Shown: one piece after another, positions 1,974 through 41,940 of the stretch
How positions within the stretch are numbered: position 1 is the stretch's first letter
How the letters are laid out: every line of letters starts with the position of its first letter
IMG/VR virus record: IMGVR_UViG_3300007071_000003
Span: 1 to 42,404 of that record
Direction: 5' to 3' (one strand)
DNA length: 42,404 bases
Source of the DNA: a virus
Notes under the pieces: model-generated
Databases searched by the model: none
What the model was told of the DNA's origin: nothing
The model's input: the letters and a program-made list of their open reading frames with translations, nothing else
Translations under genes and position numbers: made by a program

Positions 1974-3458
1974 TTACGGGGCGTCGGCATCCGCACTATC
2001 GGCTGCATCGTTCGGCGCGTTGGTTTGCTGTTCATTGCTCTGTTCACTGCGCTGCTCACTACGCTGCTCACTGCTCACGTCGAGCAATTGCGCATCTTCT
2101 TGCTCACGTCGCAAGCGTTCGCTCCGATAATCAACCCCGTACAAACCGGCAACCGTGGCCCGCGAGATAACACCGATGTTAAACATTGTCTCGGCGTACT
2201 GTAGCAGTTGGTTCGTATCGGCCACGCGCACCGGCAAGAACTCCGGCTTGGGTACGCGGGTAAATCCGTTGGCGCCGGCCACGTCACGGTACACGTGATA
2301 TACCCATTGGATCATATCACGCTGGATGTGGCGCACGAGCGCTAAGAAGCCCAACGCGGCAAACTGGTTGTCTGCTGAGTTGCTACGCTCCGTCTCGCCA
2401 ACTAACAAGATACGCGGAAATCCCAACCCAACGAGAATATCTCGATGCACGGTGTCGTACTTGGCCGGATCGAGTAGCCCCTTGTAATCGGGTAATATCC
2501 ATGAAATCTCCACCGTGTGATTGGTCACAATGTTAAACACCGCATTCTCGTTACTGGCCTTTTCCAACTCTGCCTTTAACGCCTCAATATCGCTATCATC
2601 CGCGGGGAACGCATCGTTGCCGACTTTAGCGTGTCGGAATGCCTCAATCATACGCGATGAAATAGCCGTGTCCAACCGTTGCAACATGTACTTACGAGCA
2701 AGCGCGCCGAGCACGGGCTGTAAGAACGGCTGTGGGTAGGTTGCCTGTGGTAAGAGGTTACGGTAGATGATGTATCCGTTGTACGGTAGCGCCGTCTCCC
2801 CGCGGCGAATGGCGGCAACATAATCAGGGAACCGCTCTACCAATTCCCGATAGCGAGCTGGATCACGCCGCCCGTCGGGGAACGTCCCTTTGCTCTCGAC
2901 AAACGCAATATCTTCAGACGGGATACGTAGATAAGCCATCGGCTGCGCGCCGAACACCGGCGGGTAAAAGTCGAATTGCAGCGGATCGCGTAACCAGAAC
3001 GACGCCGGCACAACGTATCGTGTGCGGGTACGCACGTTGGGTAGGCGCGTCCCCATCACCCGCTGTAGCTCGTACTGCGGGATCGCCATACCGTCAACAA
3101 GATACCCGATGATGACGGCGTGCATGATGTCGTTGATCCGCTCGGCCACGGCATTAAACACGTCATACGTTGTACTATCCGGCGTATCGCCGCCAAAAAG
3201 GGCCACATCGGTATTGACCAACCCCGACGCGGCAAGGTCGGCAATCCGTTGAATAACCGTACTCATGTGCGGGTCATTCTGGTAATACCATCGACATGCT
3301 TGCACAATTTCGCGATAGGATTTTGGTTGATCGCTTGCCAGAGCAAAACCTGCAACAATGTTCGGTATAGGGGCCGGCCCGCCGGCAACGGCTACCATGC
3401 GCCCAACACCGTATGCGCTGCCATACGCACTGCCATACGTGTATGTTCCGGTTATCAT
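1974..3458 (-). CDS. Portal protein
   Basis: This is the probable dodecameric portal through which DNA enters the capsid (494 residues). It follows the large terminase directly, sharing an ATGA overlap (start 3458, terminase stop 3455-3457), and GGGGAG precedes the start. Portal-like features include an N-terminal helical stretch with YREIVQACRWYYQNDPHM, a central region with WLRDPLQFDFYPP and YNGYIIYRNLLPQATYP, and a stretch with ISWILPDYKGLLDPAKYDTV and GFPRILLVGETERSN typical of portal clip/stem regions. The N-terminus has YGSAYGSAYG repeats, and the C-terminus is a low-complexity Ser/Glu/Gln/Arg then Asp/Ala tail. A longer frame reaches 3590 but lies inside the terminase and has no better start. 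Confidence 0.8.
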   Translation of the reverse strand: MITGTYTYGSAYGSAYGVGRMVAVAGGPAPIPNIVAGFALASDQPKSYREIVQACRWYYQNDPHMSTVIQRIADLAASGLVNTDVALFGGDTPDSTTYDVFNAVAERINDIMHAVIIGYLVDGMAIPQYELQRVMGTRLPNVRTRTRYVVPASFWLRDPLQFDFYPPVFGAQPMAYLRIPSEDIAFVESKGTFPDGRRDPARYRELVERFPDYVAAIRRGETALPYNGYIIYRNLLPQATYPQPFLQPVLGALARKYMLQRLDTAISSRMIEAFRHAKVGNDAFPADDSDIEALKAELEKASNENAVFNIVTNHTVEISWILPDYKGLLDPAKYDTVHRDILVGLGFPRILLVGETERSNSADNQFAALGFLALVRHIQRDMIQWVYHVYRDVAGANGFTRVPKPEFLPVRVADTNQLLQYAETMFNIGVISRATVAGLYGVDYRSERLRREQEDAQLLDVSSEQRSEQRSEQSNEQQTNAPNDAADSADADAP

Positions 3459-6133
3459 GTAGTCTCCCCTTGTGTCGTACCACCTGCTGCACCACCGGCG
3501 GTGGACGGTAGAGAACGAAAGACGCCAACGGGTTTTGGTAATGATCGTCGGTAAAGGCGCATTTCGGATTGCCGTTCGGCCATTGCCCAACAGATAAATG
3601 CAGCAAAGATGTGATCGTTGGGTGACGCGCCGGTACCGCTTTCACCGAGGATATAGTAGCTATCGGCACCACTTGCCGTAGAGCGCCTGGTAATACGCTC
3701 CAGCTCGCTCACCGCCTCAAAGTCAATATCAGAGAAGACAAGGCGCTTGTCTTGAATGGCCCGAATGAGGTGCAACGCACCGATGGTCTTTGTTGGCGCT
3801 GTGTTTTCAATATCCGTAGCCACCCGCTCATTGAATACAACGGGTAGGATAATGTCACGGTAGCGAAACCCACGGTAGGCGTCGTTGTACAAAAGAGTGT
3901 GGATGATTTGTAGCCCACCACCGCCGGGGCCGGCGTCAATGGCAACCCGCGCCGGCTGGTAATGACGGATAAGTTCGTGAATGATGCGTTGCTGTAAATC
4001 AAAATCTATTTTCTGTAAGACAACACGGTATACGTGTCGCCAAACGTTATCATTTCCCCGTACCGTCACCACAATGACCGTTGGGTCAACATAACCGGTA
4101 TCGATACCAAACAGCACGACACCGTTTACTTGTGGTGGATCGAGGATCGTATCCCACACGAGACCATCTCGCACGTGATCGTTGGTATACCGATCCACGC
4201 GGAATGAGAATGGCTCGGTGTGAAACTGTTCACGTTGAATAACGCTAAATGACGGACGCCCGTGTTCGCCGAGTACCAACTGCCGGTACTCGTCACTCTC
4301 TTCACCACCGTACCGACGTAAGTTATCTACGTCCATGGCCCACGTGTAATACGGGTTATTGTGAGCCGGTACTTTGTACTGTGAATAGCCTGCGTAGGCC
4401 TGCGTTGCATAGTACAGCAGGCTGGTACGTAACCCGTTTGGTACGCCGGCGACAAGGATTCGCGCATTTGGTTCCCAGTCGTTCCAACAGTGGCTGGCTT
4501 GCGTCCAGGCATCAAGGCGGAAAAGTTGCGCTTCGTCTACCACGATAACGGGTACGTGGAGGCCAACAAGGTTTGCGTTATCCTTACCGGCGATCCGTGC
4601 GCGCACAAGTACCCGCGTACCGTCGGGCCATCGGTAGTCCAAAATACCCGCTTGTCGATTGACGCGGTTTTCCAAAAAGGGGGCGAGGATCGGTGACGTT
4701 GTAGAGCGCACAATCAACCGATCCCACAGCGGGGCCAACTGCGCCTCATTCGCCGTAAGGATTAGCAGCTCCTTAGTTTGCGGTAACTCGGTTGCGTGAT
4801 TAAGCACGGTGTAGAGGATTTTATCTTCTAACACAACCGAGTTGTGGCTGATAAACCAATCGGCAATATACGTGCGGTGTTGCGGTACGTCAATCGCATA
4901 TACGGGAACGGGTTTGGGCAACGCGGTAATACTGATAATTTCATCAAAGACGATGGTGTCGTTAAACATATCATCAGCCGGCGGCTCATCGACGTGTTTA
5001 ACTACGACACCGGCAAGGGGAACAGTACGATAAAAGCGGGCCACCGCCACCGGATGGTCGATGGTAATGATCATATGACGCGGCGCTTGTGTGTATGGTT
5101 CAATCCGGCACCATACCCCGATCCGTGCTAGCAGTACGCGAATGATGTCGGCATTGGCCTGATCGGGAATGATGAGGCGAATACTCGTCTTTTCAAGCGT
5201 GGCCCACTGTGCAAATAACCCGCTTAAGAAGGCGATCACGTGTTCAGTACATTCTCGTACTAACACCCCCGGCACTTCATACATATAGTGCGGGCGGCGA
5301 TAATTGCGCATCGGCAGCACTTGTGGTACTTGTTCCACATCGTAGGACAGCGCCGCGAGGGTGCCGTGGAGCGGCGGCTTTTCTCGGTCACGGTACCACA
5401 GGAGTAAATTAAGCGTATCTGCTTCACGCAGCGGCGTCATGCTATGTTGGTAGGCCAACCGACTAATGTCGTTCAGCACGTGCTCGTTCGCACACACCAA
5501 CAGCGAGCGTTTGCGCTTGTGTTCAACAAGTGCAAGATACCCCAACAAACGCCACTCATCCGCCGTTGTCACCTTCCCCGTACACCACGTATCGGGCTGT
5601 GCTGCGAGAATAGCAACACGCTGCCCCGCCTGAAGTAATTCTGTCGTCATATACCCCTGCGGGGTAAGGAATGGATGATCGCGTGTTGCGCTGGTGCGAT
5701 ACCCGCTTTTTGTCACAATCTCGTAAACAACGTGATCTCCGTCATAAGCGACGTATGCCGGCGAACGCACCAACGCGCCCTGCTCGTTCATCGCGTACAG
5801 CTCAACGAGTACACCGCGCGACTTATTCCGTCGATGCGCTTGCACAAGATCACCGATAGTTTTCCACCCGTCGGTGGTCAGAATGCGTGTTGTTTCCGGT
5901 TGACACTTTCCGATTGCTCGCCCCCCACGCAGAATGAGGCGCGGATTAGCAGAAGGTTGCAATGTGAGAACGTCTTTTTGATACCAACGGTACGTAAACG
6001 GTTTGGCTGGCCAGAGTTGTTTGCGCATCTGCCCGTCGCGAGTAGAGCGCATAAACTCGCCAAACCACACCGGATCGCTTAGGATTTCGATAAGTGCTTT
6101 ATCCCCGTCAGTAAGTTTTTGTTGTAATGCCAT
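3455..6133 (-). CDS. terL: Large terminase subunit (ATPase/nuclease) interrupted by an intein
   Basis: This is the packaging motor and headful or cos nuclease. The precursor has 892 residues; removing the intein (77-431) leaves about 537, normal for the family. The N-extein ends at RGGRAIGK and the C-extein resumes at Ser432, so splicing restores a Walker A motif GRAIGKS. Walker B is VPVIVVDEAQ (D533, E534). The RNase H-like nuclease has GIDTGYVDPT (D678), AIDAGPGGGG (D733) and a late NDH segment (PNDHIFAAF). It lies between the probable small terminase and the portal. AGAAG precedes the start. Unspliced protein should be inactive because the P-loop is broken. Confidence in the family and the intein is high. 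Confidence 0.93.
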   Translation of the reverse strand: MALQQKLTDGDKALIEILSDPVWFGEFMRSTRDGQMRKQLWPAKPFTYRWYQKDVLTLQPSANPRLILRGGRAIGKCQPETTRILTTDGWKTIGDLVQAHRRNKSRGVLVELYAMNEQGALVRSPAYVAYDGDHVVYEIVTKSGYRTSATRDHPFLTPQGYMTTELLQAGQRVAILAAQPDTWCTGKVTTADEWRLLGYLALVEHKRKRSLLVCANEHVLNDISRLAYQHSMTPLREADTLNLLLWYRDREKPPLHGTLAALSYDVEQVPQVLPMRNYRRPHYMYEVPGVLVRECTEHVIAFLSGLFAQWATLEKTSIRLIIPDQANADIIRVLLARIGVWCRIEPYTQAPRHMIITIDHPVAVARFYRTVPLAGVVVKHVDEPPADDMFNDTIVFDEIISITALPKPVPVYAIDVPQHRTYIADWFISHNSVVLEDKILYTVLNHATELPQTKELLILTANEAQLAPLWDRLIVRSTTSPILAPFLENRVNRQAGILDYRWPDGTRVLVRARIAGKDNANLVGLHVPVIVVDEAQLFRLDAWTQASHCWNDWEPNARILVAGVPNGLRTSLLYYATQAYAGYSQYKVPAHNNPYYTWAMDVDNLRRYGGEESDEYRQLVLGEHGRPSFSVIQREQFHTEPFSFRVDRYTNDHVRDGLVWDTILDPPQVNGVVLFGIDTGYVDPTVIVVTVRGNDNVWRHVYRVVLQKIDFDLQQRIIHELIRHYQPARVAIDAGPGGGGLQIIHTLLYNDAYRGFRYRDIILPVVFNERVATDIENTAPTKTIGALHLIRAIQDKRLVFSDIDFEAVSELERITRRSTASGADSYYILGESGTGASPNDHIFAAFICWAMAERQSEMRLYRRSLPKPVGVFRSLPSTAGGAAGGTTQGETT
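4841..5905 (-). mobile_element. Intein in terminase Walker A motif with degenerate LAGLIDADG domain
   Basis: The intein spans 355 residues of the terminase precursor (77-431). It starts with Cys77 (block A, CQPETTRILTTDGWKTIGDL). Block B contains TRDH (T150, H153), and the end reads YIADWFISHN followed by Ser432, giving the required penultimate His, terminal Asn and nucleophilic +1 residue. All splicing residues are therefore present. Between the splicing halves are two LAGLIDADG-like helices: LLGYLALVE near 197-205 and FLSGLFAQWA near 302-311. In both, the positions normally holding the catalytic Asp are changed (Val and Trp). The homing endonuclease is therefore probably dead while splicing is retained. 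Confidence 0.93.
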
Positions 6134-6171: not shown

Positions 6172-6858
6172 TCAACTAGTGAGTTGCTCGTTGGCGTGTT
6201 GTGCCGTCTCGCCGGAGACAGAGCCGTCGCCTTCATTAACTGGATCATCATTGTTTACCGGATCATCGCCGATAACCAACACCGGCGGCGCGTTATTGGA
6301 CACCGTTTGCCCCGCCGTTGTCACCGTTACCGGATGACGGTACCGCCATGCTCGATCATGCGGTGGTAAATCGTCAAGCGTACCCTTTGCCGCACGTTGC
6401 ACACGTACCGGTTTTTCGCACGCGCTACACGTCACTTCGATCATAAATGCCGTATGATCGTGAACGGGCGCATACCGGAAGAGCATCACGCCACACCGCG
6501 GGCAGTACACACGCTGAATACGTTCATCAAGAAACTTTTTTGCATGGTCTTGCAACGAGGCAATGTACTGCGCCACCGAAACATCGTTATCTCCAACCCG
6601 CGTCTTGCGGTCAATCTTTAACTGTCGCTCGATCTCTTGACAACTTTTGATAAGCGACGTAATCGCCTGCGTGCGGCGTTGTAACTCCGTTGGGTCGTCA
6701 ACAGTAAGTAATTCGCGCTGCCAACGGCGGATAAGAACTTGATTGGCAATTAATTGCTCAAGGGCAATTCTGTCATTCGCGCTGTTAAGCGTGGAAAGGT
6801 CGTATTCCCGTTCATATTCTTCCAAAATCTTGCTAAACTCGGCATCGTATGTTGTCAT
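6172..6858 (-). CDS. Probable small terminase subunit with zinc ribbon
   Basis: The protein has 228 residues. Residues 1-115 are helical and charged, compatible with a DNA-binding oligomer. A four-Cys zinc ribbon follows: C119-x2-C122 (CPRC) and C144-x2-C147 (CSAC). The C-terminal 60 residues are rich in Pro, Asn, Asp and Gly and look disordered. It lies directly upstream of the large terminase, 38 nt away on the same strand, which is the classic place for the small subunit that recognises the packaging site. Sequence alone does not prove the family, because small terminases diverge strongly. GGGG precedes the ATG. Another nucleic-acid-binding zinc protein is the main alternative. Confidence 0.55.
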   Translation of the reverse strand: MTTYDAEFSKILEEYEREYDLSTLNSANDRIALEQLIANQVLIRRWQRELLTVDDPTELQRRTQAITSLIKSCQEIERQLKIDRKTRVGDNDVSVAQYIASLQDHAKKFLDERIQRVYCPRCGVMLFRYAPVHDHTAFMIEVTCSACEKPVRVQRAAKGTLDDLPPHDRAWRYRHPVTVTTAGQTVSNNAPPVLVIGDDPVNNDDPVNEGDGSVSGETAQHANEQLTS

Positions 6859-6884: not shown

Positions 6885-6944
6885 CCCCGCGTTTCCCAGA
6901 TAAACTGTACCATGCTGGTACTCATATCTGATAAAAACGCGAGG
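6885..6944 (-). terminator. Three-tier hairpin, terminator for the ribonucleotide reductase
   Basis: On the minus strand the outer stem pairs CCTCGCGTTT with AAACGCGGGG (one G-U). A middle stem pairs CAGATA with TATCTG, and an inner stem pairs GTACCA with TGGTAC around a 3-nt loop. The stem is followed by CTTTCTTGTTGGTTTT. It lies after the reductase stop and before the terminase gene. The GCGGGGGCTT end matches that of the terminator at 9127-9154. Confidence 0.7.
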
Positions 6945-6983
6945 AAAAAACACGATAGGACTGGTGATAAATGCAACTCAACC

Positions 6984-9035
6984 CTACCGAATAGGGCATA
7001 CACCACTTTCACAGTCGGCAAGGTCAACGTCGTTCAGCGCCGCGTTCGTCACCGATTGCGCGTCGCGGATATGCGAACGCAACTGCTCATACATCGCTTC
7101 ATTAATCTCTTCATATGGTGCTTGTACAAAGCCGTGATCCACGTGTCGCAAGAAAGAAACTGCCTTAATCGACGTAGTGTAGTGATCACGGAGCCACGCC
7201 TGAATATCCGGCAACTCGTGATCACGGTAGTACACGGTGACGCTCACCGAATTATCGGCCCACACCGTTTGCATAGTACGTACCGTTTCAAGTTGTGAGA
7301 TAGCGCTAAACTGCGCCGCCGTTGGCGTCGTTGTCGGTACACGGCATGGAAATGATACGACAACCGTTGACGTATCACAGCTACCGTCAAACTGCTTGCG
7401 GTACTCAATCGGGTATCCACGCTCACGACAATACGCAACGAGTGGGGATAACGCACTCATCGCTACACGGCGGATGTAGTGATGCGCAAATGCCGGATGC
7501 ACACCCGGCGTCACACCGGCAAGGAGGGAGAGTGTGCCCGACGGCTTGATGGTGGTCAGGCGAATACTTTCCGCCCACCCGCGTTTAGCACTGTACGCCG
7601 CGTCAAGGGCGCGCAAATAGCGATACGTCGGATCAAGCCATCCCCACTTCTCCCGCGCCTGTAATACCCCTGTTAAGCTCAATCCGATCCGCGCATTCCG
7701 CCGCACCACTTCGTTGCTCTTCGGATCGATATACGGTAACTGAGTAATCGCCTTTTGGATCTTGTACAGCAGATACGCACAATCGCGCAACTCACTTTCA
7801 CTACGGATGTTGGGCAAGACAATCTCGGCAAGGTTGCAGAACTCATAACTTTCGAGCGGGATTTCGCCACACGGGTTAATCCCCTCGGCAGTATCCCGCA
7901 TCGGCTCGCCGAGACGCCCCACCGAACGGGCAAGGTCAATATTCACCAATCCGTATGGCTCACCGTTGCCATAATACCCTTCCCAAAATACCGGATGTAG
8001 CTCATCAAGTGATGGCGTGATCACCGAGTTATTACTCATCGCTCGCCAATTTGGGATGGTACCTAAATCCCACCGTTTGGCATAGAGAAATGAGATGTCG
8101 GCAGGATCACCTAATGCAATCTCGGCAGAGCGGCGCACATTGCCGGCCACCACAATCTCGCCAAGGACGTTGGCAATATCTAACACGTCAATAGATGTGA
8201 GTTTTGTACCGGCCCGCCGATCAAGGATGGTACACACGTTTGTAATCCCACGAATAAGCGGTTCCGGCCCGCTTGCCACACCGCCAAATCCGGCAATCGG
8301 TTCACCGTGTGGACGGATAAGGATCGTTGAGTACGTAAACCCCTGCCCTGTAACAAAATAAGCATGTAGCACCCGCCGTACCAACTCCGTCCACCCCTCA
8401 CGACTATCGGGAACGATGAAATCGGCATCGGTGGTTTCGTGGTGCTCGATCCGCACGTTAGCGCGCACAGCAGGTAGTTCGTAGATGTGCCTGGCCTGTA
8501 CGCTAAAGCCAACCCCGCAGCCGAGCATGAGATTGTCAAAGAGATAACAGAAATCTTCAGGAGAGCGCACGGCGACATAGGCGCAATTGAGCAGCGAGTT
8601 CGCCCCATTGCGTTGAACAAATGACGTACCGAGTTGCCACAACATACGCCCCGCCGGTAGTGCGCGCAAATGAAACATGTGATCGAAGAGCCGCATCGCC
8701 TCTGCTTTGGTAAACCCCGCACCGATGGCTTGCGCGCCGAGAATAACGCGGCGGATGGTTTCCGGCCACGTTTCCAACTGCTGTGCGTCGTAGCGCAACG
8801 GCGGTAACGGTTCGTTTGCGCGGATAAGCGCACGTACCCGCTCACTCCACGTCGCCCCCGTTGCGCGCTCTATCTCATACCGCGCATATGTACGCAAGTA
8901 GACAATCTCACCTAACCCATTGAACCCCCACGGCGGCGTGCGATCACGATATTCTGCAACACATCGATCAAGAACCGCATCCAGCCGATCATCGGCAACG
9001 GTGAATGACGGGATGGTGCTGTCTCCGATGTACAT
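6984..9035 (-). CDS. nrdJ: Adenosylcobalamin-dependent (class II) ribonucleotide reductase
   Basis: This enzyme reduces ribonucleotides to deoxyribonucleotides using coenzyme B12, supplying dNTPs for phage replication. The layout fits the monomeric Lactobacillus-type triphosphate reductase. It has an NCAY cysteine (C151), the active-site NPCGEIPLE with thiyl Cys389 and Glu391, a partner Cys400, and a C-terminal redox pair C675-x4-C680 (CESGVCPIR). At 683 residues it is shorter than the 739 of the L. leichmannii enzyme. AAGGTGAT precedes the start. It sits inside the virion gene block but has its own promoter (9081-9109) and lies between two related terminators, so it appears independently transcribed. 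No thioredoxin is seen in the window, so host reductant is presumably used. Confidence 0.93.
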   Translation of the reverse strand: MYIGDSTIPSFTVADDRLDAVLDRCVAEYRDRTPPWGFNGLGEIVYLRTYARYEIERATGATWSERVRALIRANEPLPPLRYDAQQLETWPETIRRVILGAQAIGAGFTKAEAMRLFDHMFHLRALPAGRMLWQLGTSFVQRNGANSLLNCAYVAVRSPEDFCYLFDNLMLGCGVGFSVQARHIYELPAVRANVRIEHHETTDADFIVPDSREGWTELVRRVLHAYFVTGQGFTYSTILIRPHGEPIAGFGGVASGPEPLIRGITNVCTILDRRAGTKLTSIDVLDIANVLGEIVVAGNVRRSAEIALGDPADISFLYAKRWDLGTIPNWRAMSNNSVITPSLDELHPVFWEGYYGNGEPYGLVNIDLARSVGRLGEPMRDTAEGINPCGEIPLESYEFCNLAEIVLPNIRSESELRDCAYLLYKIQKAITQLPYIDPKSNEVVRRNARIGLSLTGVLQAREKWGWLDPTYRYLRALDAAYSAKRGWAESIRLTTIKPSGTLSLLAGVTPGVHPAFAHHYIRRVAMSALSPLVAYCRERGYPIEYRKQFDGSCDTSTVVVSFPCRVPTTTPTAAQFSAISQLETVRTMQTVWADNSVSVTVYYRDHELPDIQAWLRDHYTTSIKAVSFLRHVDHGFVQAPYEEINEAMYEQLRSHIRDAQSVTNAALNDVDLADCESGVCPIR

Positions 9036-30507: not shown

Positions 30508-31458
30508 ATGTCGTACTTTGAACTTTCCAATATTATGCGCGGTGTGCCGGTATTCGTTACCACGCACATGAACCCCGACGGGGATGCTATCGGCTCGGCG
30601 GTGAGTATGTATCACCTGCTGAAGCACAAAGGCCACGATGCGCGTGGTGTTGTGTTGGAAACCGACCCTGAACCACACTACCGACCCCTTCTCTACGACA
30701 CGCCTATCTTCACGCCCGCTACCCTCAGTCTACCGCAAGACTATATTGGATTGCTGGTAGACGCACATCTACCGGAGCGGGCCGGCACGGTTGCGCAGGT
30801 ACTCAATGTGCATATCGCTATCGATCACCACCCACAGAAAGACACTCCTATTCCGAGTGTCTACATTGACGAGAATGCGCCGTCGTGTTCGTTTATAATC
30901 GCCCGCCTTGCACTTCACGAGTGCGTCCACCTCTCACACCCAGCCCCGTACTCCATCTTTACCCCTGCTTACTACGGGTTAGTAACGGATACACTCTCAT
31001 TCTCGCCTACCATCGAACGTACAAAACTTATCCGCGCATTCGATGCGGCTCGTGAGATGATCGACTATGTAGATTTACGTCGTATCCGTGAAGCACAGCC
31101 GACCCTCACCCTTGACGATCTTAACGACATCGGCTGGCTGTACCGGAATATCAATCACGAAGACAACGGTATCTACACGCTGTATATCGATGGGCTGCGC
31201 CCCACGTTCAAAAAGGCTCTTGAAGCAATGCGGAGTTTGAGCGATTACCGCTACGCCATCGTTGGCGTGTATGATGGTACAACCCTTCGTGTAAGCATCC
31301 GCAGCGCACCTGACGCGAAGGCTATTCATACCATCATGGATAAGTATGGAGGCGGTGGACATCCTCACGCTGCTGGCTGCTCCATCAAAACCGATATGCC
31401 ACGTACTCTGTTTAACGCTATCGTTCACGATGTGTATCGCCTTAGTATGAAGGAATAA
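30508..31458 (+). CDS. DHH/DHHA1 phosphoesterase, NrnA-like
   Basis: The 316-residue protein has all DHH-family metal motifs: THMNPDGDAIGS (H20, D24, D26), VDAHLPERAG (D85), IDHHP (DHH at 106-108) and GLVTDTLSFSP (D161). The DHHA1 signature GGGGHPHAAGCSI lies near the C-terminus. Proteins of this layout (NrnA) degrade nanoRNAs or short DNA oligonucleotides and dephosphorylate pAp; RecJ relatives act on DNA. In a phage it could recycle oligonucleotides from host nucleic acid or trim replication intermediates. AAAGGGGG precedes the ATG. It stands alone, with a terminator just downstream. Confidence 0.9.
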   Translation: MSYFELSNIMRGVPVFVTTHMNPDGDAIGSAVSMYHLLKHKGHDARGVVLETDPEPHYRPLLYDTPIFTPATLSLPQDYIGLLVDAHLPERAGTVAQVLNVHIAIDHHPQKDTPIPSVYIDENAPSCSFIIARLALHECVHLSHPAPYSIFTPAYYGLVTDTLSFSPTIERTKLIRAFDAAREMIDYVDLRRIREAQPTLTLDDLNDIGWLYRNINHEDNGIYTLYIDGLRPTFKKALEAMRSLSDYRYAIVGVYDGTTLRVSIRSAPDAKAIHTIMDKYGGGGHPHAAGCSIKTDMPRTLFNAIVHDVYRLSMKE

Positions 31459-35274: not shown

Positions 35275-36207
35275 ATGGGCAAAGGCTATAAAACCTCCTG
35301 CCCTGCCTGTGGGGGGCACAATTTGTATGTGACCCCCCACAACGGTATGGGGTATTGTTTCAATTGCGGTTACACCTGTCGTCAACGTGAGCACAAACCG
35401 CATTATGCGCGTCGCTCATCGTTTCGCGATGGTATTCGCGCGGTGTACACCGCATACGCGCAGTGGTGTGCAGAACACATGCGCGATGAACACTACGCCT
35501 ATCTTGAGCAACGCGGTATCACCCGCGCAACAGCACAACAGTACTGCATCGGTTATTGCCCACCAAAACTCTTTGCACCGTTGCTCACGCGAGAGGCGTA
35601 TGAAGCGGGTTTGATCACGACGGATCGTAAACCGTTTCTTGCCGGTCGGATACTTATTCCGTATCTTGACACACAGGGTACGGTTATTGATCTACGCGGC
35701 AGGGTGTACGATCCAGCGGTAGCTCACTTACCGGATGTGAAGTATCTTTCGCCGTACCGCTCGGCGTATTACCGGTGGGCAGACATTCCGTATAACGCCG
35801 CTGCGTTACGGTCGCCACAGGTGGTTATCACCGAAGGCGAACTGAAGGCGTTAGCATCGGTGCAGGCGGGTATTCCATCCGTTGCCCTCCCTGGTATTCG
35901 TTCATTCCGTGATGGGTTGACCGACGGGCTGCGCATGTCGCTTGTTGTTAATGCGGGGTCCGATGTCGTCATTTGTTTTGATCATCAGCGTCAGCACATG
36001 AATGATGTTTATCGCGCCGTCATCGACCTTGTGAAGCGATTGCGGGTGCACACCACACACTTGCGCGTAGCAACGTTACCGTTGGTCGATGACGATGAGA
36101 AGATGGATATTGATACGTACATTCTGCGGTACGGTGTAGAAGCGTATCGTTCGGTTATCGCGTCGGCACCGTTATTCGATACCTGGTACCGACTGATTAT
36201 GCAGTAA
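35275..36207 (+). CDS. DNA primase with zinc ribbon and TOPRIM domain
   Basis: The protein makes RNA primers for lagging-strand synthesis. Residues 9-31 form a zinc ribbon (CPAC-x15-CFNC: C9, C12, C28, C31). The TOPRIM domain has Glu187 in VVITEGELKAL and Asp236 in CFDHQRQ, with DIDTYI following at about 278-283. The usual DxD pair reads DHQ here, so one acidic residue is replaced. At 310 residues it is short; the helicase is a separate gene downstream, 12 nt away, rather than fused as in T7 gp4. Confidence 0.85.
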   Translation: MGKGYKTSCPACGGHNLYVTPHNGMGYCFNCGYTCRQREHKPHYARRSSFRDGIRAVYTAYAQWCAEHMRDEHYAYLEQRGITRATAQQYCIGYCPPKLFAPLLTREAYEAGLITTDRKPFLAGRILIPYLDTQGTVIDLRGRVYDPAVAHLPDVKYLSPYRSAYYRWADIPYNAAALRSPQVVITEGELKALASVQAGIPSVALPGIRSFRDGLTDGLRMSLVVNAGSDVVICFDHQRQHMNDVYRAVIDLVKRLRVHTTHLRVATLPLVDDDEKMDIDTYILRYGVEAYRSVIASAPLFDTWYRLIMQ

Positions 36208-36219
36208 AGGTGTGTACCT

Positions 36220-37566
36220 ATGTCACTCATTACACAGACGGCTGCGCAGGTGGCAATACAAGCAACGGCGGCGCACGGAGCGCCTCAACAGCGTGTTGGT
36301 GAGCAAGATGATGTAAAGGTTGTCGAAACGCGGTTATTGAATGCCTTGCGCAACCCGCAGCATTGGCATCTAGTGTTGTCGCTGCGCGGGCGTGAACACT
36401 TGTTTACGGTGTATCAGGAGATAGCCAGGGCGTATGTTGCATGCTATCTCGAATGGGGCACGGTGACGGTAGACGGGGTGCGGGCCAAACTCAACGGTGA
36501 GCAATTGCCACCGGAGTTGACGATGCGCCTTGATGTTGACCCCCGCCCGCTTCTTGACGATTTGGAGCGTCGGTATATTCAGAAACGTCTTGCTGTTTTT
36601 TCTGAACTTGCCGCGCAAGAAGCGGCGATGTACCAGCCTAACCTCGATCGGCTGCAGCGGTTGTTAGAGCAACTTACACCGGTGGCAACGATTGATACTG
36701 GTATCAGCAGCGGGATTGAGCAGTTGCGACAGCGCGTCAAGCAGCGGCAATCCGGCGTGTATCGGCTGTTAAGTACGGGCATTACGTATGTTGACGCGCT
36801 GATCGGCGGTGAGTTGCCGCGCTCCGGCATCACGGTGATTACCGGTAAAAGCGGTGGCGGGAAAACGGCGGTCATGGGTGCCATTGCGCTCAATATGGCG
36901 CGCAACCATCACCTGGGGCTGGCCGGATCGCCAATTGCGTTCTTTTCTCTTGAGATGCCGAAGGATCAACTCGTGGCCCGCTTTGTGGCCGAGATGACAG
37001 GCCTCGATGCGCGTGTGGTGTACAACGGGTTGCATCTCGACGGTCGCCCATGGTCGGATGACGAGCGCGAACTCATCAAGGCGGCGTTTGAAGAGTTAAC
37101 GCTGTATCCGATGCACATCATCGACCGCGAACGGATGACGGCCCACGACTTCGTGCGCATTGCCACCGACCTACACAACACGCACGGGGTAGAAGTGTTC
37201 TTTCTGGACTATGCGCAACTCCTGGTGGTGGATACCGATATGGGTATTCACTACGGCTTAACGGCGGCCTACCGGCTCATCCGTGAGTTTGTGAAGCGGT
37301 ACAACGTGGCCGTGGTGATGGCCGCGCAAATCCACGAAGAGAAGGGTACCATCCGTGATGGGAGCGATTTAAACCGCGAGGCGTCGCTGCAAATCCATAT
37401 CACGATGCAGCACGATCAGCGCACTGAACAAGGACTTGTACCGTGCGTGTTTGAAGCAGTGAAAAACCGGCACGGGCCGATCGGCAAAATCATCGTAGCG
37501 TGGGATACGCGCCGCTTCCGCTTTGTCGAACAGCCGCATGCCGGCGCTGTACGGCAGACTACTTGA
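36220..37566 (+). CDS. Replicative DnaB-type helicase
   Basis: The hexameric helicase unwinds phage DNA ahead of the polymerase. In 448 residues it has an N-terminal helical domain and a RecA-like C-terminal domain: Walker A GKSGGGKT (209-216), FFSLEMPKDQL typical of DnaB motif H1a, Walker B VFFLDYAQLL, and AVVMAAQIHEEKG for the H3 region. It follows primase directly and precedes the nuclease gene. GGTG lies before the ATG. Confidence 0.93.
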   Translation: MSLITQTAAQVAIQATAAHGAPQQRVGEQDDVKVVETRLLNALRNPQHWHLVLSLRGREHLFTVYQEIARAYVACYLEWGTVTVDGVRAKLNGEQLPPELTMRLDVDPRPLLDDLERRYIQKRLAVFSELAAQEAAMYQPNLDRLQRLLEQLTPVATIDTGISSGIEQLRQRVKQRQSGVYRLLSTGITYVDALIGGELPRSGITVITGKSGGGKTAVMGAIALNMARNHHLGLAGSPIAFFSLEMPKDQLVARFVAEMTGLDARVVYNGLHLDGRPWSDDERELIKAAFEELTLYPMHIIDRERMTAHDFVRIATDLHNTHGVEVFFLDYAQLLVVDTDMGIHYGLTAAYRLIREFVKRYNVAVVMAAQIHEEKGTIRDGSDLNREASLQIHITMQHDQRTEQGLVPCVFEAVKNRHGPIGKIIVAWDTRRFRFVEQPHAGAVRQTT

Positions 37567-37612
37567 TACGTACCTTACGCAGAGCTACACGCAGACACAT
37601 AGGAGGTCGATC

Positions 37613-38284
37613 ATGGGTAAGCGTAGTAATCGACGGCGGGGGACGTTGTTTGAGCGCGAGTTATCAAAATTGTTACATGCCGACCGTGTACCGTTAAGCG
37701 GCGCCGGCGCGCTCAAAGGTGATGTGGTTGTACCAGTTTACAGCGGTGCGCACCTCATGATTGAGGCAAAATCAACGTCAAGTCGGGCGTACACGATCCA
37801 ACTCCCAACCGTGGAGAAGTTGATCGCGCAGCGGCAGGCAATGGTGATGTACGGCGTGGTTGCGGCGCTGTTGGCCGTGCGCGTGCATGGGTATACAACG
37901 CCCTTGCTCTTTTGCACCGATGAGGATGCAGCGTTGATAGCCGAGCGGTTTCAACATCCGCTCCCGTTACCAAACCATTACGGGCTGCACGACGTTGCGA
38001 GTAACGTTACCGTGTCGCCGACTACCGTAGCGGCGATGTTTCCGGTTCGATTTCTCGGCTCGGCTACTATTCGACCAGGAGCGCTGTTTGAAACCAACCC
38101 AGCTCGCGCCGTTTTACATTGGGTACCAACAGAGGCCTTTTTGCCGTGGCTACAGACGGTGCGTGAGCACTACGGGTTTCAACCGCGCCCAAGCATTGCC
38201 TACTCGCCGATGACGGTACATAAACGTCGCTCCGCGAGTACACCGGTTGAGCGACTGCTCCACGAGATGGATGATGAACGGTGA
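37613..38284 (+). CDS. Hjc-like Holliday junction resolvase/endonuclease
   Basis: The protein has 223 residues from ATG 37613, preceded by TAGGAGGT; the longer frame overlaps the helicase gene and lacks a site. The N-terminus is basic (GKRSNRRRG), followed by nuclease-fold residues: E14 (FERELSKLL), GD37V, and E51-A-K53 (LMIEAKSTSS), the order E, D, ExK of archaeal-type Holliday junction resolvases and related restriction-fold nucleases. It is probably used to resolve recombination or replication intermediates. The C-terminal 120 residues are of unknown role. Confidence 0.72.
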   Translation: MGKRSNRRRGTLFERELSKLLHADRVPLSGAGALKGDVVVPVYSGAHLMIEAKSTSSRAYTIQLPTVEKLIAQRQAMVMYGVVAALLAVRVHGYTTPLLFCTDEDAALIAERFQHPLPLPNHYGLHDVASNVTVSPTTVAAMFPVRFLGSATIRPGALFETNPARAVLHWVPTEAFLPWLQTVREHYGFQPRPSIAYSPMTVHKRRSASTPVERLLHEMDDER

Positions 38285-38308
38285 AATGTTCTCCGAGGGG
38301 GACAACGT

Positions 38309-38743
38309 ATGACGCGCAAGCGATTGACCAGGGCAACGGTAACACAGTATCAACACGTGCTCCCCGTTGGACAAGAAGTAGACGTACACATCACGTGGCG
38401 ACATGCGTATGACCAGATGCCGCGCACGTGGCAGCGCCGCGGGGTTGTCACCGCTGTGCGGCAGGCCAGGCAAAGTGAAGATGTCTTTGATATGACACTC
38501 ACCGGCGTATTGGTGGTAGAGGTTGCGTACACGCCGCAGCGCACGTATACCCCATACCCCAACGATGACCTTGTGTATCTCGACGGTAAAGTACCGCTGG
38601 TACTCTATCTCGACCCTTACGTAGGCGAGTTGTCACTTCTTAACGATACGATACTCACCGCCCACGGGATTGCGTACCGCACCGATACCGTCGATGTCAC
38701 GATCTGTCGCTGTGACGTGGAGCCGCTCAAGGGCGAGGGTTGA
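38309..38743 (+). CDS. Protein of unknown function in replication operon
   Basis: The 144-residue protein has a basic start (TRKRLTRATVTQYQ) and a beta-rich body (LPVGQEVDVHITWRHAYDQM, VFDMTLTGVLVVEVAYTPQR) with many Tyr/Pro/Asp residues. GGGG precedes the ATG. It lies between the nuclease and the polymerase genes. No family is recognised; a DNA-metabolism role is only inferred from its operon. Confidence 0.6.
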   Translation: MTRKRLTRATVTQYQHVLPVGQEVDVHITWRHAYDQMPRTWQRRGVVTAVRQARQSEDVFDMTLTGVLVVEVAYTPQRTYTPYPNDDLVYLDGKVPLVLYLDPYVGELSLLNDTILTAHGIAYRTDTVDVTICRCDVEPLKGEG

Positions 38744-38791
38744 TGTGACTGCCGGCGGGTGAGTGAACGAATACGGATATTGGAGGCGGCT

Positions 38792-40822
38792 ATGAATGCG
38801 CGACAAGATGAAGCTACGCAGGCAAATCATCTTCTCCTCTCAGACATTCCGTACCGGTTGATTACCGAGCGGAATGAACTACCAGAGTTGCGCGGCACGT
38901 ATATTGCTGTTGATACGGAGACGACAGGGCTATCTCCGCGTGAACATGAATTGGTGTTGGTGTCGGTGTGCGACGGTACGCAGGTGGTGGTGTGCGACGT
39001 GCGCGCCATCGGAGTGCATGATGTTCTTTCGTGGCTCACGTCGTATTTTGATAACCGTCATCTTATCATCGGGCATAATCTGGCGTTTGACTACGGCTTT
39101 CTGTATGCCGCCGGATTTCCCTTACCCGTTCATTCGTTTGATACGATGTTGGCCGAAACATTGCTGCGGGCCGGCTTGCCGACGGCACACCGTATCAGGT
39201 TGCTTGACCTCGCAGCACAGTACTGCAACGTGCAATTGGATAAAACCCTTCAACGAGCCTTCGGCGGTGACATTACCGAGGCGCACCACAGCTACGCCGC
39301 CGATGACGTGCGCTATCTCATTCCCATCTTTCATCGTCAACGCGCCTTGTTAGAACGGTACAACCTAAAGCGTGTTGCCAGGTTGGAAATGAGCCTTATC
39401 CCAATCGTGGCGCAGATGGAGTACCACGGTATTCCGATCAAGCCACGCCTTGTGGCCAGCTTGAGCGATGAAGTAAACCGCCGCCGAACCGATGTGTTGC
39501 ACGTGCTCAGTTGGTATGCCTTACATGCCGACGCTGTTACCCGCGTTGCCGTCACACCGACAGGGTGTGTGACGATTAATCCTAACAGTAAACCGACAAC
39601 GCGCGGCGAACAAATAGCGCTCGGCACATGTTGGTCCATTCTGGCCCGTCTCGGCGTGCCGGTGGTAGACCAATTCGGGCAGCCGTCGCTTAGTCGCGAA
39701 AATGTCCTACGCGCCGATGCGCAGGTCGATACAACAGGTGAGATGGCGCGGGGTGACATTGTTTTCCCCATACCGGAAGAGCTTACCAAACCGTCGGCAT
39801 ATCGTCATCCGGTGTTGGCGTTGTACCAGCAATACATCGGCCTGACCAAAGTCGCGACAACGTACCTTAAACCGTTGCGCGCTGCCGGCGAACGGTACTA
39901 CGGCTATTATCGGCAGCTCGGTGCTCACGCAACGGGACGGTTCTCATCCAACTTGCAGCAATTCCCCAACGACGCGGCATTGCGCGGGCTAGGACTGACA
40001 ACCACGATCCGCGCTTGTATCGGGTACGACGTTGAGCACGGCGCGCCTGACGATACCGTGCTCTTTATTGCCGACTACAGCGCCATTGAGCTGGTCATTC
40101 TTGCCGATATGAGCGGTGATGAGCAATTGCAACGCCTGATTGTTGCCAGTGCCAGCGGTGAGGATGATTTACACCTATACGTGGTGCGCCGTGCCTTCGC
40201 GTCTATTCACCCGCAAGCGCCGGAGGCAACGGTAGCGCGGCGGAAAGAAGAACCGTTCGTGACCTTGCGCAAGGCGGCCAAGCCCGTGAGTTACGGTATT
40301 GCCTACGGCTTAACCGGCGCGGGGTTGGCAAAAACGATTAACCGCGAGTTGGCCTCGTTGAACATCCACGTGACCACCGAACAGGCCGAGCGTATCATCA
40401 CTTTGTGGAAACAAGAAGCGTTTCCGCAAGCAGGCGCGTGGCTTGATCGCGCCCAACGTGACGGCGTGGTACAAGGGTTTACGTGTACGGCATTGGGGCG
40501 GCGACGTTGGTATCCGCCGGCTACCACACCAAAAGAGCGCGCAGCCATCATGCGGCAAAGCTGTAACGCACCGATCCAGGGTACCTGCGCCGACCTTATC
40601 AAACAAGCAATGGTCTACGTTCACGCCGCCGTACAACCGTACCACGCCCGCATTATGATGACCGTACACGATGAACTGGTATGCGAAGGGCCGGCTCGCT
40701 TCAAAGACGACATCGCAACGGCAATGAAACAGGCAATGGAACGAGCAGCGCGCGACATCCTCCCGTCTATGGGCCGGTACGTAGTCGTCGATGTTCACCC
40801 GTCGTATACCTATGACAAATAG
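38792..40822 (+). CDS. polA: Family A DNA polymerase with 3'-5' exonuclease
   Basis: The replicative polymerase has 676 residues from ATG 38792 (TGGAGG ahead); a GTG at 38759 also opens the frame. The proofreading exonuclease is complete: DTETTGL, HNLAFDYG and YAADDVRYL. The polymerase has motif A DYSAIELVILADMSGD, motif B RKAAKPVSYGIAYG and motif C MTVHDELVCE. No 5' nuclease domain is present. In motif A the usual Arg after IEL is Val. In motif B the position of Phe in bacterial Pol I is Tyr, as in T7 polymerase, which predicts low discrimination against dideoxynucleotides. Confidence 0.95.
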   Translation: MNARQDEATQANHLLLSDIPYRLITERNELPELRGTYIAVDTETTGLSPREHELVLVSVCDGTQVVVCDVRAIGVHDVLSWLTSYFDNRHLIIGHNLAFDYGFLYAAGFPLPVHSFDTMLAETLLRAGLPTAHRIRLLDLAAQYCNVQLDKTLQRAFGGDITEAHHSYAADDVRYLIPIFHRQRALLERYNLKRVARLEMSLIPIVAQMEYHGIPIKPRLVASLSDEVNRRRTDVLHVLSWYALHADAVTRVAVTPTGCVTINPNSKPTTRGEQIALGTCWSILARLGVPVVDQFGQPSLSRENVLRADAQVDTTGEMARGDIVFPIPEELTKPSAYRHPVLALYQQYIGLTKVATTYLKPLRAAGERYYGYYRQLGAHATGRFSSNLQQFPNDAALRGLGLTTTIRACIGYDVEHGAPDDTVLFIADYSAIELVILADMSGDEQLQRLIVASASGEDDLHLYVVRRAFASIHPQAPEATVARRKEEPFVTLRKAAKPVSYGIAYGLTGAGLAKTINRELASLNIHVTTEQAERIITLWKQEAFPQAGAWLDRAQRDGVVQGFTCTALGRRRWYPPATTPKERAAIMRQSCNAPIQGTCADLIKQAMVYVHAAVQPYHARIMMTVHDELVCEGPARFKDDIATAMKQAMERAARDILPSMGRYVVVDVHPSYTYDK

Positions 40823-40839
40823 CATTTCGGGGGCATGCT

Positions 40840-41940
40840 ATGTTTCAACCATTTCTGGCATTCCTGGATACACCGCAGCAGTTTCTCCCGTCGGGGGTTC
40901 TGGCTATCGACACCATCACCGGCGGCGGTATCCCCGTCGGGCATATTACCGATATTGTCGGCGAGAAGGGGCTGGGCAAAACCACTCTCGCCCTGCATAT
41001 TGCCGCAAAGCATCTGGCGGCGGGTCACCCCGTGTACTATGTCGATAGTGAGTTCTCCCTTGATCCATCCTACGCCCGCCGCTTTTTTGGTACGGCTTCC
41101 TACTGCTATGTTCTCCAACAATCCATCGCCGAAGACGTTTTTACCCACATTGAACAGGCTGCGACTACACCGCACGCCCTCATCATCCTCGACAGTATCA
41201 ACAGCCTCATTCCGCACGACGTGACCGACGTGCCTGCACCAAAAAAACACGAAGCTTATTCCTACAGTACACAAGTTGGCGCCATGGCCCGTATTACCAC
41301 CGTCTTTCTGAAGCGCGTTCTTCCTACCTTGTTCACTTACAAGAGTACGTTGCTCATTATCAACCAATACCGATCCAACATCACCACCGGCCTGCTGCGC
41401 GGCCCCGATAAAAAGCCCGCCGGCTTTCACTTCTACCACCACTCCATCTATACCCGTATTGAGTTGGCAAAAGGGGAAACCGTTCCTAACGTCGGTATTA
41501 AGGTTATTGCCAAAGTGACTAAAAATAAAGCCGCCCCTTCCCACGGCGTTGCTTCCTATACCCTCCTCTCCCACGGCGGGATCGATATTCCACAAGACCA
41601 CGTGGATTTTGCCCTTCGTGTCGGCATCCTTACCCGCTCCGGCCCGTGGTACCGCTATACCGACCCCACTACTGGTCAAACCCATACCGCCCAAGGCGCG
41701 CGCCATATCGCGTCCGTCCTCCCCCTTCCAACCGTCTACCACGCCGTCATGGAACGCGCCCCCGCTTTTCCCGGTATCGATATAGCCAAAGGAACCACTA
41801 TGGTATCAGATATTCCAACATCAGGTACCATACCATCGGATACTTCGACAATCGCTAATCCGACACCCGATGCTACACCTGTGTCACCAAATGTTGCGCC
41901 GGTAGACGCGGCGCCGGTAGATACTTCACCTTTTGATTAA
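40840..41940 (+). CDS. recA: RecA-like recombinase
   Basis: The ATP-dependent strand-exchange protein of 366 residues has Walker A GEKGLGKT (41-48), Walker B ALIILDS (D118), and a loop with LLIINQYRSNITTG corresponding to the RecA L2 region. The core is RecA/UvsX/RadA-like; similarity to cellular RecA is partial, so UvsX-like may be the better name. The last 70 residues are Thr/Pro/Asp/Ala-rich and probably disordered. GGGGGC precedes the ATG. It follows the polymerase closely in the same operon and would support recombination-dependent replication. Confidence 0.85.
   Translation: MFQPFLAFLDTPQQFLPSGVLAIDTITGGGIPVGHITDIVGEKGLGKTTLALHIAAKHLAAGHPVYYVDSEFSLDPSYARRFFGTASYCYVLQQSIAEDVFTHIEQAATTPHALIILDSINSLIPHDVTDVPAPKKHEAYSYSTQVGAMARITTVFLKRVLPTLFTYKSTLLIINQYRSNITTGLLRGPDKKPAGFHFYHHSIYTRIELAKGETVPNVGIKVIAKVTKNKAAPSHGVASYTLLSHGGIDIPQDHVDFALRVGILTRSGPWYRYTDPTTGQTHTAQGARHIASVLPLPTVYHAVMERAPAFPGIDIAKGTTMVSDIPTSGTIPSDTSTIANPTPDATPVSPNVAPVDAAPVDTSPFD

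Follow-up and report, generated by a model that had tools for sequence, protein, structure and literature searches.

The window analyzed here is the whole 42,404-base stretch of IMG/VR record IMGVR_UViG_3300007071_000003, from an uncultivated virus. On the minus strand, translation of positions 3455-6133 yields an 892-aa protein predicted to be an intein-bearing precursor of a phage large terminase (TerL), with a Walker A ATPase and an RNase H-like nuclease domain. The exteins match the terminase large subunit family phrog_2 (3.1e-16), and a match to Terminase_6C falls just below threshold (1.7e-4; 22.0 bits versus a cut-off of 22.6). The Walker A motif is whole only once the protein is spliced. 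The junction reads GGRAIGK/CQPETT...WFISHN/SVVLED (slashes mark the splice points), and the insert thus lies between the Walker A Lys and Ser. The features are as follows, all on the minus strand.

3455-6133, minus: terL, large terminase precursor with intein, 892 aa (phrog_2; Terminase_6C below cut-off)
5906-6133, minus: N-extein, terminating in Walker A GGRAIGK (translation)
4841-5905, minus: putative class 1 intein, 355 aa, residues 77-431 of the precursor (Intein_splicing, intein_Nterm, structural model, Foldseek match to TliVMA)
5903-5905, minus: Cys1, N-terminal splice nucleophile (57/57 relatives)
5675-5686, minus: block B, T74-R-D-H77 (TxxH; T74 and H77 invariant in 57/57)
5597-5905, minus: N-terminal half of the splicing (Hint) domain, residues 1-103, boundary approximate (TIGR01445, model)
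4958-5596, minus: LAGLIDADG domain, predicted to be catalytically dead, residues 104-316, boundaries approximate (LAGLIDADG_3 in relatives; profile matches to PI-PfuI, TliVMA and I-DmoI)
5522-5548, minus: block C helix LLGYLALVE, residues 120-128, catalytic position Val127 (alignment to TliVMA FLGYLIADG)
5201-5230, minus: block E helix FLSGLFAQWA, residues 226-235, catalytic position Trp234 (alignment to PI-PfuI FIAGLFDAEG and I-DmoI FIKGLYVAEG)
4841-4957, minus: C-terminal part of the splicing domain, residues 317-355, with the His-Asn end (Intein_splicing, family alignment)
4838-4840, minus: Ser+1, which is also the Walker A serine (sequence)
3455-4840, minus: C-extein, the remainder of the ATPase followed by the predicted RNase H-like nuclease domain (Terminase_6C, phrog_2)

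Immediately upstream of terL is a conserved gene with a zinc-ribbon-like CxxC...CxxC pattern (6172-6858, minus strand), which also precedes terL in L007, a related contig. As a guess from position, it possibly encodes the small terminase subunit. The packaging genes adjoin a gene for an adenosylcobalamin-dependent ribonucleoside-triphosphate reductase (6984-9035, minus strand; TIGR02505, 6e-109), which is present in contigs L001, L002, L006, and L007 as well.

Splicing domain

The insert matches Pfam Intein_splicing (2.1e-10, above its cut-off) and TIGR01445 intein_Nterm (1.5e-10). Cys1, T74-x-x-H77, H354-N355, and Ser+1 are all in place, and joining the flanks gives GGRAIGKS. The pattern is beyond chance because C1, T74, H77, H354, and N355 are identical in all 57 distinct relatives; the end is likewise kept as HN/S or HN/T in every one. 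A Hint fold is predicted by the AlphaFold model and by its Foldseek matches to VMA, PI-SceI, and DnaB inteins. Residue 1, the TxxH motif, the His-Asn end followed by Ser or Thr, and this predicted fold together point to a class 1 intein.

The usual block F Asp is Ala337 in the window, and the usual block F His position is Arg344. Across the family the Asp site is occupied by Ala, Ser, Gly, or Thr (Asp in 0/57), and the His is mostly missing. Asp is common at this site but not universal, and other residues are found there in active inteins. Given the family-wide replacement, the splicing chemistry may be unusual. The block F changes are also what could favor a segment that never splices, in a terminase that either works with the insert or is dead. 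We find this barely credible: the other splice residues are kept in 57/57 relatives, the exteins of close pairs are under strong purifying selection (dN/dS 0.007-0.055), and ATP binding should be lost while the Walker A loop is interrupted.

We infer that the window intein splices. Judging from the position of the insert, the precursor would be unable to build the Walker A loop before exit of the intein joins Lys to Ser, and the packaging ATPase would presumably be idle until then; the study of mycobacteriophage terminase inteins argues likewise (PMC5050341).

A LAGLIDADG domain lacking the catalytic acids

An AlphaFold model of the intein, computed from an alignment of 40 family inteins, reached a pLDDT of 84.9 and a pTM of 0.85 and was poor only at residues 174-208; a single-sequence fold gave a pLDDT of only 38. 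The best PDB matches of the model include the TliVMA intein (1.1e-20), PhoVMA (third-best, 6.4e-17), PI-PfuI, and PI-SceI. LAGLIDADG_3 was detected in 18 of the 40 family members (best 5.8e-7). From the matches and the model, the domain between the Hint halves is predicted to adopt the LAGLIDADG alpha/beta fold. TliVMA (7qsu, 7qss), the best structural match, has the same Hint plus LAGLIDADG layout but is an active endonuclease with both Asp residues, unlike the window intein.

In a profile (HMM) alignment of the endonuclease part, Trp234 takes the place of the catalytic acid in PI-PfuI, I-DmoI (Glu117), and TliVMA, and Val127 that of the first acid in TliVMA. Active LAGLIDADG enzymes have two acids at the helix ends. 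Because Val127 and Trp234 fall on the catalytic positions of solved enzymes, both acids are, by alignment, gone from the window intein. The only invariant or near-invariant acids of the family, E117 and D/E146, were considered as a substitute pair and lie off the catalytic positions. E228 was considered as a replacement acid and is Ser in the window's own clade.

The loss extends across the family. Our sample comprises 57 distinct inteins, which form 41 clusters at 90% identity and 14 at 50%. Both acids are present in 0/57, and 49 have neither. The block E position is never acidic (Tyr in 25, His in 15, Phe in 10, Trp in 3, others in 4); it is aromatic or His in 53 of the 57, within a stereotyped replacement motif, FLEA-x-[FY]AQ-[YHFW]-[GA]. 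The block C position is acidic in eight inteins, spread over 3 of the 41 clusters, representing three lineages with one acid. Intein length is 328-368 residues, with an endonuclease part of 194-214 residues in all 57 and no mini-intein that has shed this part, and the exteins diverge to 34% identity. The charge of the endonuclease domain ranges from -6 to +7 and its pI from 5.0 to 9.6 (6.9 in the window). Given this wide variation, no conserved DNA-binding surface is evident.

These results agree closely with the first-pass annotation, made from the window's letters. It had placed an intein at 4841-5905 in the terminase P-loop, and these boundaries proved exact. The splice residues that it listed were found, as was its restored loop, and the two acid-free helices are as it quoted them. 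It had proposed structure prediction of the 355-residue segment, which returned a confident LAGLIDADG intein fold; an acidic pair at the catalytic positions, sought as the contrary case, is absent in all 57 relatives.

The LAGLIDADG domain of WhiA is non-cleaving and is reused as a regulator. This domain (3hyi, 3hyj) is also a Foldseek match to the window fold, but it belongs to a stand-alone host transcription factor and is not part of an intein. The closer parallel is PhoVMA (7qst), a LAGLIDADG intein in which both acids are gone and the fold is kept, as in the window (PMC8966425). PhoVMA is a degenerate member set against an active orthologue, TliVMA, and its block E helix is truncated, whereas in the window family the loss is family-wide, block E forms a full-length helix, and purifying selection acts on the domain (see below).

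Site occupancy and related inteins

IMG/VR contains a large family of window-type terminases, and among the databases searched the family occurs only in virus contigs. The first relatives of the window intein and terminase were two near-identical contigs, a contig with 81% extein identity, and another with 46% (L007); in each, the intein occupies the same junction. A search with a DNA pattern encoding GGRAIGKC retrieved 60 viral contigs, nearly all with intein-bearing terminases. In bacterial and archaeal genomes (84,980 species), the same pattern gave 40 matches, none of them a terminase intein, and an earlier terminase alignment identified no relatives in bacterial genomes.

GGRAIGKC selects occupied sites, and the search was therefore repeated with C-extein motifs away from the insertion point. 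This confirmed 122 relatives, of which 80 were retrieved and 79 could be assessed for occupancy; the intein is at the same site in all 79. Empty sites were sought with a pattern that would recognize 53 of the 57 distinct members once their flanks were joined; no viral contig matched it. The intein is apparently fixed in the sampled terminase family. The nearest intein-free terminase found, from GX15bay, reads ARSIGKS with no insert and has 24-26% identity; no cultured-phage relative beyond this match was found.

Terminase inteins are known in crAss-like phages (PMC7886860) and in cyanophage Mic1 (PMC7156551). In mycobacteriophages, TerL1-a and TerL1-b are both P-loop terminase inteins, like that of the window, and TerL1-a lies at the same junction, between the invariant Walker A Lys and the next Thr (PMC5050341). 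Close sequence kinship of TerL1-a to the window intein and extein was not found: tblastn of the C-extein against mycobacteriophage terminases gave no match, and the only intein matches in mycobacteriophages have 21% identity, in genes annotated as portal proteins. Both TerL1-b and TerL1-c were tested and cut DNA, their targets being the intein-less terminase genes of related phages (PMC5050341). In contrast to these active cutters, the window family lacks the acids and every sampled relative is occupied. There are precedents both for a terminase intein at this Walker A junction (TerL1-a) and for LAGLIDADG inteins that have degenerated (PhoVMA). In the open-access literature searched, no intein was found that is apparently fixed throughout a family and whose endonuclease is conserved yet catalytically dead.

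The L007 terminase has a second insert (6931-7770), which splits the nuclease domain; the gene resumes downstream. This insert includes an ORF for a LAGLIDADG_2 endonuclease (7009-7668, 3e-25) and matches group I introns weakly (30.6 bits, under the Rfam cut-off). The L007 terL thus contains an intein with a dead endonuclease and probably also a group I intron with an intact-looking one. L007 also has a free-standing LAGLIDADG_3 endonuclease gene (3173-3940), flanked by the gene for ribonucleotide reductase on one side and by the small gene preceding terL on the other. No gene occurs at the equivalent place in the window.

Descent and selection

Trees of the intein and of the C-extein were compared for 52 members, counting splits with support of at least 0.9. 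There are 26 supported splits in the extein tree and 32 in the intein tree; 19 are common and one conflicts, versus at most one shared split with permuted labels. Distances in the two trees are correlated (r = 0.92). Because the trees agree, inheritance has been essentially vertical; such agreement is expected of vertical descent in the absence of homing. Continued homing, via noncanonical residues or a separate endonuclease acting in trans, could still be argued from the single block C acid in 8/57 inteins and from the free-standing and intron-encoded LAGLIDADG genes of L007. The congruent trees make this very improbable, as do the block E position (acidic in 0/57), the location of E117 and D/E146 off the catalytic positions, and the lack of empty target sites among viral contigs.

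Selection was assessed in three independent close pairs in which both acids are missing. The dead domain has accumulated 17 nonsynonymous versus 94 synonymous changes (p ~1e-41 against neutrality). Its dN/dS values are 0.26, 0.04, and 0.02, and those of the splicing domain are 0.25, 0.06, and 0.01. The signal is weakest for the window's own close pair, with 5 nonsynonymous and 6 synonymous changes (p ~0.02-0.03), and the strong power comes from other members. Values of dN/dS at greater distances were discarded because synonymous sites are saturated; for the window versus L006 we give only raw proportions, which are subject to this saturation (pN 0.29, pS 0.84). By these computations, the dead endonuclease domain is under purifying selection and is not decaying. 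Some of the missense constraint may reflect foldability alone, since the domain lies inside an essential reading frame in which stops and frameshifts would be lethal anyway.

The first-pass annotation had called the intein a frozen element. The agreement of the trees upholds this as far as vertical inheritance is concerned, but purifying selection on the dead domain does not fit a useless relic. Its implied picture of a decaying remnant in one phage is not supported: the loss of homing is family-wide, the intein is in every relative examined, and the replacement motif is stereotyped.

A possible noncutting role for the endonuclease domain

The reading that we prefer, with somewhat better than even confidence, is of an ancient, fixed, homing-dead intein whose endonuclease scaffold is kept for another job, most likely in folding or splicing of the precursor. 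On this view, a Walker A intein of class 1, splicing in cis, would have lost its LAGLIDADG acids before the family diversified, and thereafter would have been inherited along with terL, unable to home yet retained. Loss may be prevented because only exact in-frame removal restores the P-loop and no empty allele was found for recombination. The endonuclease fold would have taken on a task other than cutting, most likely that of giving the Hint domain structural support for folding or splicing, a maturase-like dependence. The computed parts of this explanation are the anatomy, the missing acids, fixation in the sampled family, the congruent trees, and purifying selection; splicing of the precursor, an ATPase that waits for it, and the role of the scaffold are what we propose beyond them.

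There are precedents. The TliVMA endonuclease has been suggested to help splicing, a mutualism with the Hint domain (PMC8966425). Endonuclease-derived maturases and PRP8 inteins provide a framework in which an endonuclease is kept by selection once splicing depends on it (PMC1654191). Maturases serve RNA introns, unlike the window intein, and PRP8 endonucleases under selection are functional, with domain and intein losses reported (PMC1654191), unlike the window family.

Alternatively, the domain could be a passive relic, conserved only because missense changes would misfold the terminase precursor and because exact in-frame trimming is rare. This account fits a domain inside an essential frame that evolves faster overall than the exteins (tree-distance slope of 2.15 versus the C-extein), and PhoVMA is a precedent for loss of both acids with retention of the fold (PMC8966425). 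However, in close pairs the constraint on the endonuclease domain is about equal to that on the splicing domain, none of 57 inteins is trimmed although exteins diverge down to 34% identity, and position 234 is stereotypically aromatic or His. We consider a passive relic unlikely, but worth serious attention.

Another alternative is a regulatory switch, in which splicing is delayed by a scaffold that responds to DNA, the prohead, or the small terminase, and packaging ATPase activity therefore begins late in infection. The P-loop position implies that ATP binding would need splicing first, and it has been argued that unspliced mycobacteriophage terminase cannot oligomerize (PMC5050341). Conditional splicing has a precedent in P. 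horikoshii RadA with ssDNA, as quoted in PMC8987985. On the other hand, the variable charge and pI leave no evident conserved DNA-binding surface, and mycobacteriophage terminase inteins splice readily with no trigger (PMC5050341). We regard such a switch as decidedly improbable.

Returning to the retained scaffold, a stronger version would have the intein out of the homing cycle for good throughout this phage family, its endonuclease now an obligate noncutting module on which splicing, and through it assembly of the motor, depends, possibly with a part in timing. This is plausible, although we rate its chances as a little short of even.

In the homing-cycle model, fixation is followed by decay and deletion of the endonuclease and, in the end, by loss of the intein. 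The window family departs from this prediction: the endonuclease, though dead, is still in place and is not decaying, and the search for empty sites produced none. The family thus offers a natural setting in which to ask whether splicing comes to require an endonuclease domain (by mutualism or constructive neutral evolution) and whether phages gate packaging by inteins, and its dozens of varied terminase inteins could be put into splicing assays. For annotation, a terminase of this family should be expected to have ~855-925 residues, with an intein.

Other genes in the window

A search of the window for known RNA families, including group I introns, returned none. Positions 35275-41940 (plus strand) encode a replication block with primase-like, DnaB helicase, family A DNA polymerase, and RecA-like genes, none of which has an intein match. 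A DHH/DHHA1 phosphoesterase gene is located at 30508-31458 (plus strand).
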